Below, one piece after another: positions 29,919 through 34,647 of a stretch of 64,000 nucleotides of DNA. This DNA comes from Maribacter sp. (GTDB lineage Bacteria; Bacteroidota; Bacteroidia; Flavobacteriales; Flavobacteriaceae), in assembly GCA_024643345.1 (NCBI GenBank), contig JAHENB010000002.1:89465-153464 (forward strand). The letters run 5' to 3'. The translations under genes and the position numbers were made by a program. Positions within the stretch are counted from its first letter, which is position 1. Every line of letters begins with the position of its first letter. The notes beneath the pieces were generated by a model that was given only the letters and a program-made list of their open reading frames with translations, was not told the origin of the DNA and ran no database searches.

Positions 29919-30359
29919 ATGGAAAGAAAGGAATTTTTAAGAAGTTTGGGGGCCGGTGCGGCTTTTGCGGTCATTTTCCCTTGTGTTCAGGGCTGCTCCA
30001 AAGACGAATCCCCGGGTGAGGTAAAACAAGTGCCCACTAATGTCGATTTTACCATAGACCTCAATTCCGCCGAGGCGGCAGCCCTAAAGAACAACGGCGG
30101 GTTTATTTTAAAAAATAATGTAGTCGTGGTGAAGAACCTACAAGGGGTATACATAGCTGCGAGCCAGATTTGCAGCCATCAGGCATATGATCAAGTACGA
30201 TTCATCGATCAGCAAGGTGGTATTTTTTATTGCGATGTACATGGATCTCGTTTCGAACAAGATGGGAGTCCGTTGAACCAAGTCGATAATGATCCTGCCA
30301 AACCTTTGAAAATTTTTGGCACGGAACTTTCCGGAGACCTTTTAAGGGTGTTCGAATAA
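29919..30359 (+). CDS. Rieske [2Fe-2S] lipoprotein
   Basis: A 146-residue exported protein with a lipobox (VQGC, Cys26) and a Rieske domain. The cluster ligands are visible as C85-S-H87 and C105-D-V-H108 in the pattern CxH...CxxH. It probably carries electrons at the periplasmic face. It precedes thioredoxin, ApbE, DUF4266 and DUF3570 genes, but an internal promoter at 30369 means it may be a separate unit. Its redox partner is unknown. Confidence 0.9.
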   Translation: MERKEFLRSLGAGAAFAVIFPCVQGCSKDESPGEVKQVPTNVDFTIDLNSAEAAALKNNGGFILKNNVVVVKNLQGVYIAASQICSHQAYDQVRFIDQQGGIFYCDVHGSRFEQDGSPLNQVDNDPAKPLKIFGTELSGDLLRVFE

Positions 30360-30381: not shown

Positions 30382-30828
30382 ATGCAACCCATGATAAGAC
30401 TTCTGCTCGGTATCACCATGTTTTCGTTGTCGATATTTGCTTCCGCACAAGATTGGCAGGCCGATTTTTCAATGGCCCTAACGAAAGCCGAGCAGACCCA
30501 GAAGCCCTTGATCGTGGTATTTGCTGGGACCGACTGGTGTGCCCCCTGTATGAAACTGGATCGGGAAATTTGGCAATCGGAAACCTTTCAGGCCTATGCC
30601 AAGGAAAACTATGTGCTCTATCGCGCCGATTTTCCTAGAAAAAAGGCCAATCAACTTTCGCAGGAACTCACCCTTTCGAACGAGAAATTGGCAGAGCGTT
30701 TCAATCCACAGGGCCATTTTCCCCTGGTGGTGGTCTTGGATTCCGATCAGAAATTACTGGGAACCACCGGATACCAGAAACTGCCGCCCGAAAAGTATAT
30801 CTCCCTCTTAAATTCATTTTTAAAGTGA
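30382..30828 (+). CDS. Exported thioredoxin-family protein
   Basis: A 148-residue protein with an N-terminal signal sequence (to about residue 23) and a thioredoxin fold. The active site is DWCAPCMK, with Cys53 and Cys56. It is likely periplasmic and reduces or oxidises disulfides. It begins a tight unit with apbE, whose GTG start overlaps its stop by 4 nt, then DUF4266 and DUF3570. The neighbours suggest a partner for a small Cys-containing lipoprotein or for flavin attachment. Confidence 0.88.
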   Translation: MQPMIRLLLGITMFSLSIFASAQDWQADFSMALTKAEQTQKPLIVVFAGTDWCAPCMKLDREIWQSETFQAYAKENYVLYRADFPRKKANQLSQELTLSNEKLAERFNPQGHFPLVVVLDSDQKLLGTTGYQKLPPEKYISLLNSFLK

Positions 30829-31823
30829 AGGCCCTGATGCCCTTGCTTTTTTGTTTGCTTGCCTTCAATTTAAATGGGCAGGAGCGGAAATATGTCACCG
30901 TGAGCAAGACCCTAAAACTTATGGGCAGCCGGTTCGATATTACCGTGGTAGCGGTGAACGAGGAACTGGGCTACATCAATATCGATGAGGCGGTTGCCGA
31001 AATTACGAGAATCGAGAAACTCATCTCGGCATGGGATGAAGCCTCGGAGACCTCGCTCATCAATCGCAATGCCGGTATCAAACCCGTCAAAGTAAGTCTG
31101 GAACTCTTCAAACTGATAGAACGTGCCAAACAGATTTCGGAAATTACCGACGGGGCCTTCGATATTTCATATGCCTCGATGGATGCGATCTGGAAGTTCG
31201 ATGGTACGATGAAGAAGATGCCCTCTGAGGACGAAATAAAAAAATCGGTTGCCCGGGTAGGCTATCAGAAAATCATATTGAACAAGGAAGACCGTACTGT
31301 CTTCCTAAAACAGCCTGGAATGAAGATTTCTTTTGGTGCGATCGGCAAGGGCTATGCGGCCGATAAGGCCAAAGAACTATCGATTTCCAATCAAGTCGTC
31401 GCGGGCATTATCAATGCGGCCGGTGATCTTACCACTTGGGGCACCAAAGTGAGCGGCGAAAAATGGCTGATCGGTATTGCCAATCCACTGTCTAAAGATA
31501 AGATTTTTTCTTGGCTACCTATCTTCGAATCTTCAGTGGCCACCTCGGGGAACTATGAAAAGTACGTCATTTTCGGAGGCAAAAAATATACCCATATCAT
31601 TGATCCCAGAACGGGCTATCCGGCATCGGGAATCAACAGCGTATCCATTTTCGCCAAGAGTGCGGAATTTTGTGATGCCTTGGCAACGTCAGTGTTCATC
31701 ATGGGCAAAGATGCCGGTATCTCATTGATCAACCAATTGCCGGATACCGAGGTGATTTTGGTAGATGACCATAATAAGATCTATAAAAGCAATGGCATTT
31801 TATTCGAAAGTGAACCACAATAA
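30825..31823 (+). CDS. apbE: FAD:protein FMN transferase
   Basis: Attaches FMN through a phosphoester to Ser/Thr of target proteins, outside the cytoplasm. The 332-residue protein has a signal sequence ending near NLNGQ. Motifs include FGAIGKGYAADKA near residue 172, ATSGNYEKYV near 238 and THIIDPRTGYPA near 252. The start is GTG at 30825 (GTGA overlap with the thioredoxin stop); an ATG lies four codons later. Known targets include NqrB/C and FMN-bind proteins; none is present here, which points to a neighbour as target. Confidence 0.93.
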   Translation: MKALMPLLFCLLAFNLNGQERKYVTVSKTLKLMGSRFDITVVAVNEELGYINIDEAVAEITRIEKLISAWDEASETSLINRNAGIKPVKVSLELFKLIERAKQISEITDGAFDISYASMDAIWKFDGTMKKMPSEDEIKKSVARVGYQKIILNKEDRTVFLKQPGMKISFGAIGKGYAADKAKELSISNQVVAGIINAAGDLTTWGTKVSGEKWLIGIANPLSKDKIFSWLPIFESSVATSGNYEKYVIFGGKKYTHIIDPRTGYPASGINSVSIFAKSAEFCDALATSVFIMGKDAGISLINQLPDTEVILVDDHNKIYKSNGILFESEPQ

Positions 31824-31887: not shown

Positions 31888-32097
31888 ATGAAAAAGTTTT
31901 TCTTGCCCTGTTTATTTGTTATGCTGTCCTCTTCCTGTGTGGCGGTAAAGGAATATGAAATGGTGTACATCAACGATGAGGAAATGTTGTTATCGGCCAA
32001 AGTATCGGAACAGTTTGAGACCAATTTTCAAATCTATCGTGAAGCCGCCGCAGGTGCAAATGGCGGAAAGGCGGGAGGCGGTTGCGGATGTAATTAG
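31888..32097 (+). CDS. DUF4266 small lipoprotein
   Basis: A 69-residue lipoprotein with a signal sequence ending LSSSC (Cys17). The mature part is a short acidic helical stretch ending in a Gly-rich tail, KAGGGCGCN, with two Cys. This fits DUF4266, found in Bacteroidota and Proteobacteria next to DUF3570. The tail could bind metal or form a disulfide, which would suit the neighbouring thioredoxin, but this is inference. Confidence 0.85.
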   Translation: MKKFFLPCLFVMLSSSCVAVKEYEMVYINDEEMLLSAKVSEQFETNFQIYREAAAGANGGKAGGGCGCN

Positions 32098-32190: not shown

Positions 32191-33471
32191 TTGAAAACCT
32201 TTTTAGCCCTCTTGATGATACTTTCTTGTTTGGCGGGAGCGGCCCAAGCGGATGCCACGACCTATAAGAAAAGGGTTTTGGAAACCGCCGAAATAGATTT
32301 GTTGTTCAGTTATTATGGTCAGGATGGTCAGAATGCAGCGGTTACCGGAGGTCAGGGTACCGAAGAATTGACCGATGCCACCTCAAGCATTGTGGTGCGC
32401 ATTCCCATGAACGAAGATGCCGTTTTAACGGTCGATGTTGGGATTTCTGCTTATAGTTCCGCTTCCTCCAGCAACATCAATCCTTTTGATGGTGACCCCA
32501 ATAGGCCCGCGAGTCCGTTCAGCGCCTCATCAGGGGCATCGCAGAGCGATGCGCTCGTCCATTTTAATCCCAGCTACGCCTACAGTTCCGACGATCGCAA
32601 CTCGGTTTGGTCGGGTAATCTTTATGTTTCCTCTGAATATGATTATTTTTCACTAGGTTTTGGTGGGGGCTACGCCCGTTTGTTCAACGAAAAGAACACC
32701 GAGTTGAGTCTGAGTGGCAAAGTGTATTTGGATAAATGGAACCCACAGTATCCCATTGAATTGAGAAGCGGTTTTTTCGATTCCCGTATCACGGGCATCG
32801 GCATTTACGACCCATCGTTCACCCCTTTCGATAAAGTGAACCGAAATACCTACACCCTTTCGCTTGGCCTTTCACAAATTTTGGGAAAAAAGCTTCAAGC
32901 ATCCATTTTTATGGATTTGGTGCGGCAGAACGGTCTCTTGAGCACCCCTTTTCAAAGGGTATATTTTTCGGACACCAACGATTTTTTTATTGAAGACTTT
33001 CAATTGGCTGATGATGTGGAACGCCTTCCCGATAATCGTTTGAAGATACCCATAGGGGCCAGGCTCAACTATTATTTGAACGATACTTTTATTTTGCGCA
33101 GCTATTATCGTTATTATTTTGATGATTGGGGCATCAGTGCGCATACTGCAAGTATGGAAATTCCTATTAAATTGGGGGATTCCTTTGTGGTCTATCCTTC
33201 GTATCGCTATTATACCCAAACCTCGGCCGATTATTTTTATCGAAAGGATGCGGCTTCGTCTACGGGCGTTTTTTATACTTCCGATTACGATCTTTCGGCC
33301 TTTAGCGCCCACCAATATGGTATGGGCTTTCGCTATAAGGACATCTTTACCCGTGCCAAGATCTTGATGTTCGGCCTCAAGGCAGTAGATCTGCGTTTGA
33401 ACAAATATGATCGAAGCGATGGTCTCAATTCGTTCATTATTACCTTGGGCACCACCTTTATTGGGGACTAA
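32191..33471 (+). CDS. DUF3570 outer-membrane protein
   Basis: A 426-residue exported protein from a TTG at 32191 (MKTFLALLMI), with a signal sequence ending around residue 20. The rest is rich in Tyr, Ser and alternating hydrophobic residues, typical of a beta-barrel. It contains SSGASQSD at residues 113-120; SGAS (114-117) resembles the ApbE attachment pattern [S/T]GA[S/T]. It follows DUF4266 by 93 bp. DUF3570 genes commonly accompany DUF4266 and ApbE, suggesting a single envelope redox system. Confidence 0.85.
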   Translation: MKTFLALLMILSCLAGAAQADATTYKKRVLETAEIDLLFSYYGQDGQNAAVTGGQGTEELTDATSSIVVRIPMNEDAVLTVDVGISAYSSASSSNINPFDGDPNRPASPFSASSGASQSDALVHFNPSYAYSSDDRNSVWSGNLYVSSEYDYFSLGFGGGYARLFNEKNTELSLSGKVYLDKWNPQYPIELRSGFFDSRITGIGIYDPSFTPFDKVNRNTYTLSLGLSQILGKKLQASIFMDLVRQNGLLSTPFQRVYFSDTNDFFIEDFQLADDVERLPDNRLKIPIGARLNYYLNDTFILRSYYRYYFDDWGISAHTASMEIPIKLGDSFVVYPSYRYYTQTSADYFYRKDAASSTGVFYTSDYDLSAFSAHQYGMGFRYKDIFTRAKILMFGLKAVDLRLNKYDRSDGLNSFIITLGTTFIGD

Positions 33472-33570: not shown

Positions 33571-34647
33571 ATGATTGATAAGTTAAACATAGTAAAACAA
33601 CGTTTCGATGAGGTTTCCGACCTGATCATCCAACCCGATGTGATTTCCGATCAGAAGCGTTATGTGCAGCTGAACAAGGAATATAAGGATTTGAAAGCAC
33701 TTGTTGATAAACGCACACAATATCTCGAACTGACCAATAATATCAACGAAGCGGAGGAAATAATTTCAGATGGCAGTGATGCCGAAATGATTGAAATGGC
33801 CAAACTTCAATTGGAAGAGGCCAAAACTGCGCTTCCCCTGTTGGAGGAGGAAATTAAATTTTTACTTGTACCCAAAGACCCGGAAGATGCCAAAGACGTT
33901 GTGATGGAAATCCGCGCGGGTACGGGCGGTGATGAGGCGAGCATCTTTGCGGGCGATTTATTCAGGATGTACACCAAATTTTGTGAATCTAAAGGATGGA
34001 AGACCAATGTGATCGACCTCAGTGAGGGCACAAGTGGCGGGTACAAGGAAATCCAGTTTGAGGTTACGGGGGAAGATGTCTATGGCACCCTGAAGTTTGA
34101 AGCAGGGGTGCACCGTGTACAGCGCGTTCCCCAAACGGAGACCCAGGGAAGGGTGCATACTAGCGCGGCCACGGTGATGGTGCTTCCTGAAGCGGAAGAT
34201 TTTGATGTGCAGATCGATCCAAAGGATGTAAGGATTGATTTTTTCTGTTCCTCGGGGCCAGGAGGCCAGTCGGTGAACACCACGTATTCGGCGGTACGTT
34301 TGACCCACCTTCCCACAGGTTTGGTGGCCCAATGCCAAGATCAGAAATCTCAGCACAAAAACAAGGATAAGGCCTTTATGGTTTTGCGATCCCGCTTATA
34401 CGATATGGAGCTGGCCAAAAGGCAGGAGGCGGATTCCGCTAAAAGAAATTCTCAGGTGAGCAGTGGCGACCGGTCTGCAAAGATAAGGACTTACAATTAT
34501 CCTCAAGGAAGGGTTACCGACCACAGAATAGGACTAACCCTGTATGACCTCCAGAATATTATTGATGGCGATATTCAAAGAATTATAGAAGAATTGAGAC
34601 TGGTAGAGAATACTGAGAAGTTAAAAGAGGCCTCGGAGATTTTCTAA
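33571..34647 (+). CDS. prfA: Peptide chain release factor 1
   Basis: Recognises UAA and UAG stop codons on the ribosome and releases the protein. The 358-residue protein has a GGQ motif, [10 protein letters not shown], near residue 230, which acts in the peptidyl transferase centre. The upstream codon-recognition region [16 protein letters not shown] near 190 fits RF1. It is followed by pyrF after 11 nt. Confidence 0.96.

Follow-up and report, generated by a model that had tools for sequence, protein, structure and literature searches.

The DUF3570 protein encoded in the analysed window, a stretch of 64,000 nucleotides from a Maribacter genome, is predicted to be an outer-membrane β-barrel. 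In the reading that we regard as reasonably probable, it carries FMN on two serines, Ser92 and Ser117, attached by ApbE before insertion of the barrel, and would form the end of a thiol-to-flavin relay to an acceptor at the cell surface. Flavin attachment to DUF3570 is well supported by homology. Gene content, conservation, co-occurrence and a predicted fold come from computation, and flavinylation of a homologue from the literature; we infer the electron path to the cell surface, and likewise the modification of the window protein itself, the orientation of the loop with both serines, the timing of attachment, the relay with its acceptor, and any role of a Rieske protein.

The DUF3570 gene occupies positions 32191-33471 of the forward strand, with a TTG start at 32191, and encodes 426 amino acids. 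The product matches the DUF3570 profile (PF12094) at 150.4 bits (gathering cut-off 25; E = 8.6e-44), the sole match listed in a Pfam scan with E-values up to 1, in which FMN_bind (PF04205) and NQR2 (PF03116) gave no match. As regards a possible signal peptide, the N-terminus is hydrophobic by eye, and residues 2-17 form a helix in the model. An earlier note had drawn attention to SSGASQSD at residues 113-120 as an ApbE-type motif. The string is present, SGAS being residues 114-117, and occupies 32527-32550; the note placed it one codon late, at 32530-32553, a span that encodes residues 114-121 (SGASQSDA). Only two [ST]GA[ST] strings occur in the 18,311 amino acids of 59 non-overlapping open reading frames of the window, DUF3570 included, or 0.047 per 426 residues; by this rarity and by the conservation of Ser117, SGAS in DUF3570 is more than a chance occurrence. 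It forms likely flavinylation site 2 (S114-G-A-S117, 32530-32541 of the forward strand, with the acceptor Ser117 at 32539-32541). The idea of a single site at SGAS stands as far as that site goes, but there are two likely sites, of which SGAS is the less constant; the one that had been missed is site 1 (S86-A-Y-S-S-A-S92, 32446-32466, same strand, with the acceptor Ser92 at 32464-32466).

The flavinylation reading of DUF3570 is correct but already published at the family level, and it is not new because Meheust 2021 (PMC8238504) showed it for the family. According to that paper, ApbE-associated DUF3570 proteins have two conserved [S/T]GA[S/T] motifs; the DUF3570 protein of Chlorobium (C. luteolum) is flavinylated in E. 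coli by its cognate ApbE, and Ser-to-Ala replacement at both motifs was needed to abolish flavinylation. This family-level result, together with two matching serines in one loop of the window protein, supports SGAS as an ApbE site, and it overturns the statement that no known ApbE target is nearby, DUF3570 being itself a published one. Clusters of ApbE, DUF3570, Thioredoxin_7 and DUF4266 were counted in the same work, 227 with DsbD and DUF3570, and 316 without DsbD. The window unit likewise has apbE in the gene cluster. Two [S/T]GA[S/T] motifs are not found in the window protein: site 2 reads SGAS, and site 1 reads SSAS, which fits only a wider consensus. In the open-licence literature DUF3570 and DUF4266, searched by name or Pfam accession, were found in Meheust 2021 only, and no description of DUF3570 as an outer-membrane barrel was found there; the words "barrel", "Rieske" and "porin" are absent from the main text of PMC8238504, and "barrel" is absent from a second main paper on flavinylation too. 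What the analysis adds is a second site, a pattern in how the motifs vary, a predicted outer-loop topology and a Rieske gene that recurs; the sequence logo in Figure 3C of PMC8238504 may already include Ser in place of the Gly.

DUF3570 is predicted to fold as a 16-strand outer-membrane β-barrel. The AlphaFold2 model, built from an alignment of 78 sequences (A2; the window protein and 77 of 119 others), has a mean pLDDT of 90.8 and 16 strands, an even number that closes a barrel, in keeping with the earlier description of the protein as barrel-like. All 50 of the 50 matches listed by Foldseek are outer-membrane barrels by title, with E-values down to 5.2e-12 and a low TM-score, 0.38, for the first. 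In VIA-align the protein scores Z 21.4 against a BamA model (278 residues, 3.6 A) and Z 21.0 against 4y25, which we take to be PgaA (256 residues, 3.4 A); alignments to solved outer-membrane barrels span DUF3570 residues 30-426. Both acceptor serines lie between strand 3 (residues 77-90) and strand 4 (121-132) of the model, in a loop of residues 91-120 (32461-32550, forward strand) that is modelled at lower confidence, with blocks of 57-72. The model of a distant homologue from family f31 (L041; pLDDT 83.0) also has 16 strands, and its two serines (96 and 117) again fall in the strand 3-4 loop, whose pLDDT is partly below 50.

This loop is probably extracellular, because both termini are periplasmic in the general topology of such barrels. 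Unlikely, though deserving of serious attention, is the reading that places the flavin loop within the barrel or facing the periplasm, in which case the protein would be a periplasmic reductase or a gated porin and not a surface electron donor. The loop is long and could fold into the lumen, since it is modelled with lower confidence, and the published text leaves the function of DUF3570 open, suggesting iron assimilation for some clusters (PMC8238504). Against it stand the even strand number and the disposition of the model, with the termini on one side together with short turns and the long loops opposite, which puts the strand 3-4 loop outside. The 78 proteins of A2 contain 66 [ST]GA[ST] strings, of which 62 fall in this loop, three in other outer loops and one in the N-terminal stretch, and the 35 proteins of a further alignment (A3) contain 51, with 48 in this loop and three in other outer loops, but the mapping is uncorrected for length and motifs would often fall in outer loops anyway, because these are the longest stretches. 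Invariant or nearly invariant positions are in excess on the outer side, as defined by a half-way split of our choosing (29 of 35, against 250 of 392 positions overall; binomial p 0.012), which fits a conserved outer mouth; mean conservation did not differ significantly between outer and inner strand halves (p 0.14).

Conservation of the two sites was assessed in a close-relative set of 81 proteins, i.e., the window protein and those of the best 80 of 576 loci, nearly all from Flavobacteriaceae by title; the nearest named ones (75-77% identity) belong to an uncultured Flavobacteriaceae bacterium, Ulvibacterium marinum and a Maribacter MAG. Both Ser92 and Ser117 are kept in 81/81 of this set. 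Site 1 reads TSAS in 73 proteins and SSAS in eight, i.e., [ST]SAS in 81/81, and site 2 reads SGAS in 55, TGAS in four, SGES in 21 and SGQS in one, i.e., [ST]GA[ST] in 59/81. The 22 SGES or SGQS loci (L060, L064-L066, L068, L069, L071-L079, L082-L085, L087, L115 and L117) have apbE in the locus in 21 cases, L082 starting too near the gene to tell; 21 of the carriers are, by title, Allomuricauda, Muricauda or Flagellimonas, the remaining one being an Ulvibacter. Conservation of SGA[S/T] next to apbE, proposed earlier as a check, is thus borne out for the acceptor serine and fails for the full motif in these 22 proteins.

At greater distances the same serines persist. When the window protein was aligned with eleven others of its order and five members of family f31, which belongs to its phylum, the Ala-Ser pairs 91-92 and 116-117 proved invariant in 17/17. 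Family f31 is probably Chlorobia-like, judging from motifs and multiple copies; site 1 of this family is D-x-x-[ST]-G-A-S, which aligns with S-A-Y-S-S-A-S of the window protein. Each f31 genome has several DUF3570 matches, up to nine rows in G253, some of them pieces of one gene, which looks like paralogue expansion. In A2, where the strand 3-4 loop aligns poorly, site 1 is [ST][GS]AS in 74/78 sequences, ASAS in three and TVPA in one. Site 2 is [ST]GA[ST] in 54/78, and the other 24 are nine SSAS, five SGES and two SSPS, with one each of SGQS, STPS, TSAS, SALT, SGLT, AGAS, GGAK and a gap. The motif Asp is missing at both window sites; position 86 is Ser, and Asp is found there in 24 of the 78 sequences. 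Replacement of this Asp with Ala is reported to have only a minor effect in one substrate (PMC12052999), and the residue is called essential for V. cholerae ApbE (PMC10722498). As a side observation, the DUF3570 proteins of L160, L161 and L163, with apbE downstream, have two to three D-x-x-[ST]-[AS]-A-S sites, possibly allowing three flavins on one barrel.

It appears rather unlikely that only site 2 (SGAS, Ser117) carries FMN and that site 1 has decayed, losing Asp and Gly, with SAYSSAS kept for structure. Site 2 is the sole [ST]GA[ST] in the DUF3570 protein, and Gly-to-Ala replacement in another ApbE substrate lowered flavinylation to about half (PMC12052999). Site 1 is, however, the more constant of the two in the window and the best 80 of 576 loci, and the published consensus D(g/s)x(s/t)(s/g)A(S/T) admits Ser at the Gly position (PMC8065229), for which reason Ser-for-Gly is not new in principle. 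A further argument against decay comes from five distant genomes, in which D-x-x-[STA]-S-A-S is what DUF3570 offers their only apbEs. These genomes (G040, G075, G091, G130 and G223) have one, one, one, two and one apbE, respectively, each within about 3 kb of the DUF3570 gene; FMN_bind, DUF2271 and NqrB/RnfD gave no match in them, and none of their six DUF3570 proteins contains [ST]GA[ST]. The three from G040, G075 and G091 read D-x-x-[ST]-S-A-S at site 1 and SSAS at site 2, and the three from G130 and G223 read D-x-x-A-S-A-S and S[ST]PS. apbE is absent from the DUF3570-less relatives G053 and G266, which share a genus with G040, and G066, which shares a family with G075 and G091. Genus g48 includes five genomes with [ST]SAS-type DUF3570 and two apbEs, and three that lack DUF3570 and possess a single apbE. 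The lack of known substrates is weak proof, because some ApbE substrates clearly go unrecognised: G083, G227 and G301 (genus g48) and G061 have one apbE each and neither DUF3570 nor FMN_bind, so that an unrecognised substrate is likely there, and G211 has two apbEs, one FMN_bind and no DUF3570. Accepting Ser at the Gly position would add proteins to searches that use the strict [S/T]GA[S/T]. A specificity switch in ApbE for Ser versus Gly was considered and dropped; 20 positions separate 105 operon ApbEs from 18 ApbEs of another clade, and no switch can be named because these positions follow clades, several being shared with f31 ApbEs whose substrates have Gly.

The converse, that FMN sits on Ser92 only and that the SGAS of site 2 is a remnant or has a structural role, seems improbable. 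It would account for the SGES and SGQS variants, which occur next to an invariant site 1 among the best 80 of 576 loci and nearly always with apbE in the locus, and for S[ST]PS at site 2 in G130 and G223. Yet Ser117 is as invariant as Ser92 in the same 81 proteins, and both C. luteolum sites had to be mutated before flavinylation was lost (PMC8238504). Flavinylation of both serines is the reading that we retain.

The operon ApbE appears to be dedicated to DUF3570. On another contig of the window genome (C61) a second apbE lies within about 6 kb of FMN_bind and NqrB matches, and a further FMN_bind match is found on contig C46. In a tree of 135 ApbE sequences, 20 of them fetched away from DUF3570 (midpoint root), the operon ApbE groups with ApbEs of DUF3570 operons, apart from 18 found elsewhere in related genomes; these 18 of the 20 form one clade with support 1.0, and the other two, L184 and L186, fall among the operon ApbEs and belong to a group of six genomes (G001, G003, G009, G010, G020 and G034) whose DUF3570 gene is elsewhere in the genome. 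Among 60 genomes (the window genome and 59 relatives), at most one apbE is found in the 38 without DUF3570, and two or three in 20 of the 22 with it, two rows of G041 being pieces of one broken gene and counted as one. It is thus highly improbable that the operon ApbE acts on NqrB and NqrC of Na+-NQR and that the DUF3570 motif is incidental, for, although the genome does have FMN_bind and NqrB matches, it is the second apbE that adjoins those genes, the operon ApbEs are another clade, apbE number goes with DUF3570, and DUF3570 has been flavinylated experimentally (PMC8238504).

The co-directional unit runs in the order Rieske, thioredoxin, ApbE, DUF4266, DUF3570, all on the forward strand, and is followed by prfA at 33571. 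The membership of the DUF3570 gene in a tight group with apbE, a thioredoxin and DUF4266, as claimed before, was confirmed by Pfam matches to all three. The thioredoxin-like protein, predicted to be periplasmic (Thioredoxin_7, PF13899; 30382-30828; 7.6e-17), has the active site C-A-P-C at 30538-30549; 74 of 75 homologues have WCxxC (66 WCAPC, eight other WCxxC, one neither), and the NCBIfam DsbH model gives 76.5 bits, under its cut-off of 190. The ApbE FMN transferase (30825-31823; 1.1e-82) has a GTG start that overlaps the end of the thioredoxin gene, and an N-terminus that looks like a signal peptide by eye. DUF4266 (PF14086; 31888-32097; 9e-18) is a small putative lipoprotein with a lipobox-like SSSC (Cys17); the lipobox pattern fits 67 of 79 homologues, and GGGCGCN forms the C-terminal end in 79/79, C-G-C of the window protein being at 32083-32091. 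DUF3570 and DUF4266 share exactly the same 22 of the 60 genomes. A conserved partner downstream of DUF3570 was considered and dropped, as next-gene families did not recur beyond four loci, besides prfA (29 loci) and an opposite-strand gene (8 loci), with products judged by eye. Two loci are of separate interest. In Aquimarina mytili (L124), thioredoxin, DUF4266 and DUF3570 occur without apbE in a 19 kb locus, and the genome has two apbEs. Muricauda yonaguniensis has a second DUF3570 unit (L110) with no Rieske gene within the stretch, followed by a sequence that resembles the DsbD N-terminus by eye, and a Rieske-type unit (L071) in the same genome.

The first gene of the unit, on which the earlier note is silent, encodes a Rieske [2Fe-2S] protein (29919-30359, forward strand, start chosen by eye; Pfam Rieske 1.5e-07) with a lipobox-like beginning and the cluster ligands C85-x-H87 ... 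C105-x-x-H108 at 30171-30242; the C-x-H and C-x-x-H residues are at least 98% conserved in 36 homologues. The gene is found upstream in 36 of the best 80 of 576 loci, all in a group that shares synteny with prfA; two more loci belong to this group, L084 without Rieske and L082, which is cut off. Outside these 80 loci, 39 others with DUF3570 were examined, and in seven a Rieske gene also precedes the thioredoxin gene; families f17 and f23 and genus g48 are represented among the seven. All seven proteins score above the Pfam Rieske cut-off, and six, L145 being the exception, have C-x-H ... C-x-x-H. Among the loci with this arrangement outside the prfA-syntenic group are L145, L147, L150, L153, L168 and L171. 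Another arrangement is seen in L202-L207 (from G009, G001, G003, G010, G020 and G034), where purM, Rieske, thioredoxin, apbE and prfA occur without DUF4266 or DUF3570 between. The Rieske protein may feed or drain the relay, or it may form a separate system with thioredoxin and ApbE, to which the six loci lacking DUF3570 point.

The relay that we propose would proceed as follows. The neighbouring ApbE would flavinylate DUF3570 on Ser92 and Ser117 in the periplasm, ahead of barrel insertion; ApbE being taken as periplasmic, an outer loop would have to be modified before insertion. An engineered LOV protein was not flavinylated in vitro, and hiding of the motif from ApbE in the folded protein was proposed (PMC10722498). 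Electrons would pass from DsbD in the cytoplasmic membrane to Thioredoxin_7 in the periplasm, on to the CxC tail of DUF4266, a lipoprotein of the outer membrane, and then to the covalent FMNs of DUF3570, the terminal carriers, which would reduce a surface acceptor, perhaps ferric iron. The part of DsbD rests on its published co-localisation, because it is unlinked here and nearly universal: the single DsbD_TM match of the genome is on contig C67 and the operon on C34, 58 of 60 genomes have DsbD, whether or not they have DUF3570, and among the 22 DUF3570 genomes only G019 has the two less than 1 kb apart. If both flavins are on the outer loop, many Bacteroidota, and the green sulfur bacteria for which flavinylation was shown, would own a redox system at the surface that needs no multi-haem cytochromes, and the role of DUF3570 flavins would become directly testable. 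More speculatively, and with considerable doubt on our part, DUF3570 and DUF4266 could form a cytochrome-free electron conduit across the outer membrane, in which the glycine-rich CGC tail of DUF4266 enters the 16-strand barrel and reduces the two FMNs at its outer mouth, with the Rieske protein as a second entry in several lineages. Thiol electrons from DsbD and thioredoxin would then exit the cell via flavin instead of haem.

Among known systems, the nearest is the DsbD-type flavinylated system (Meheust 2021, PMC8238504), which has the same four genes, ApbE, DUF3570, Thioredoxin PF13899 and DUF4266, and in which DUF3570 is likewise an ApbE substrate with two acceptor sites and DUF4266 ends in CxC. 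The window unit differs in that it has no adjoining DsbD and is led by a Rieske gene, that site 1 has Ser for Gly, and that neither site has the Asp. The FMN_bind and NqrB/NqrC substrates are reported to be alike in that ApbE, acting outside the cytosol, attaches FMN to Ser or Thr of a [ST]GA[ST]-like motif. DUF3570, however, is a predicted outer-membrane barrel, and not a soluble domain or an inner-membrane protein. In porin-cytochrome conduits of the MtrCAB type, a barrel helps electrons to cross the outer membrane. The likeness of the proposed DUF3570 conduit to these is one of function only: whereas they employ haem, the DUF3570 unit, among whose products no haem protein was identified, would rely on FMN and thiols.
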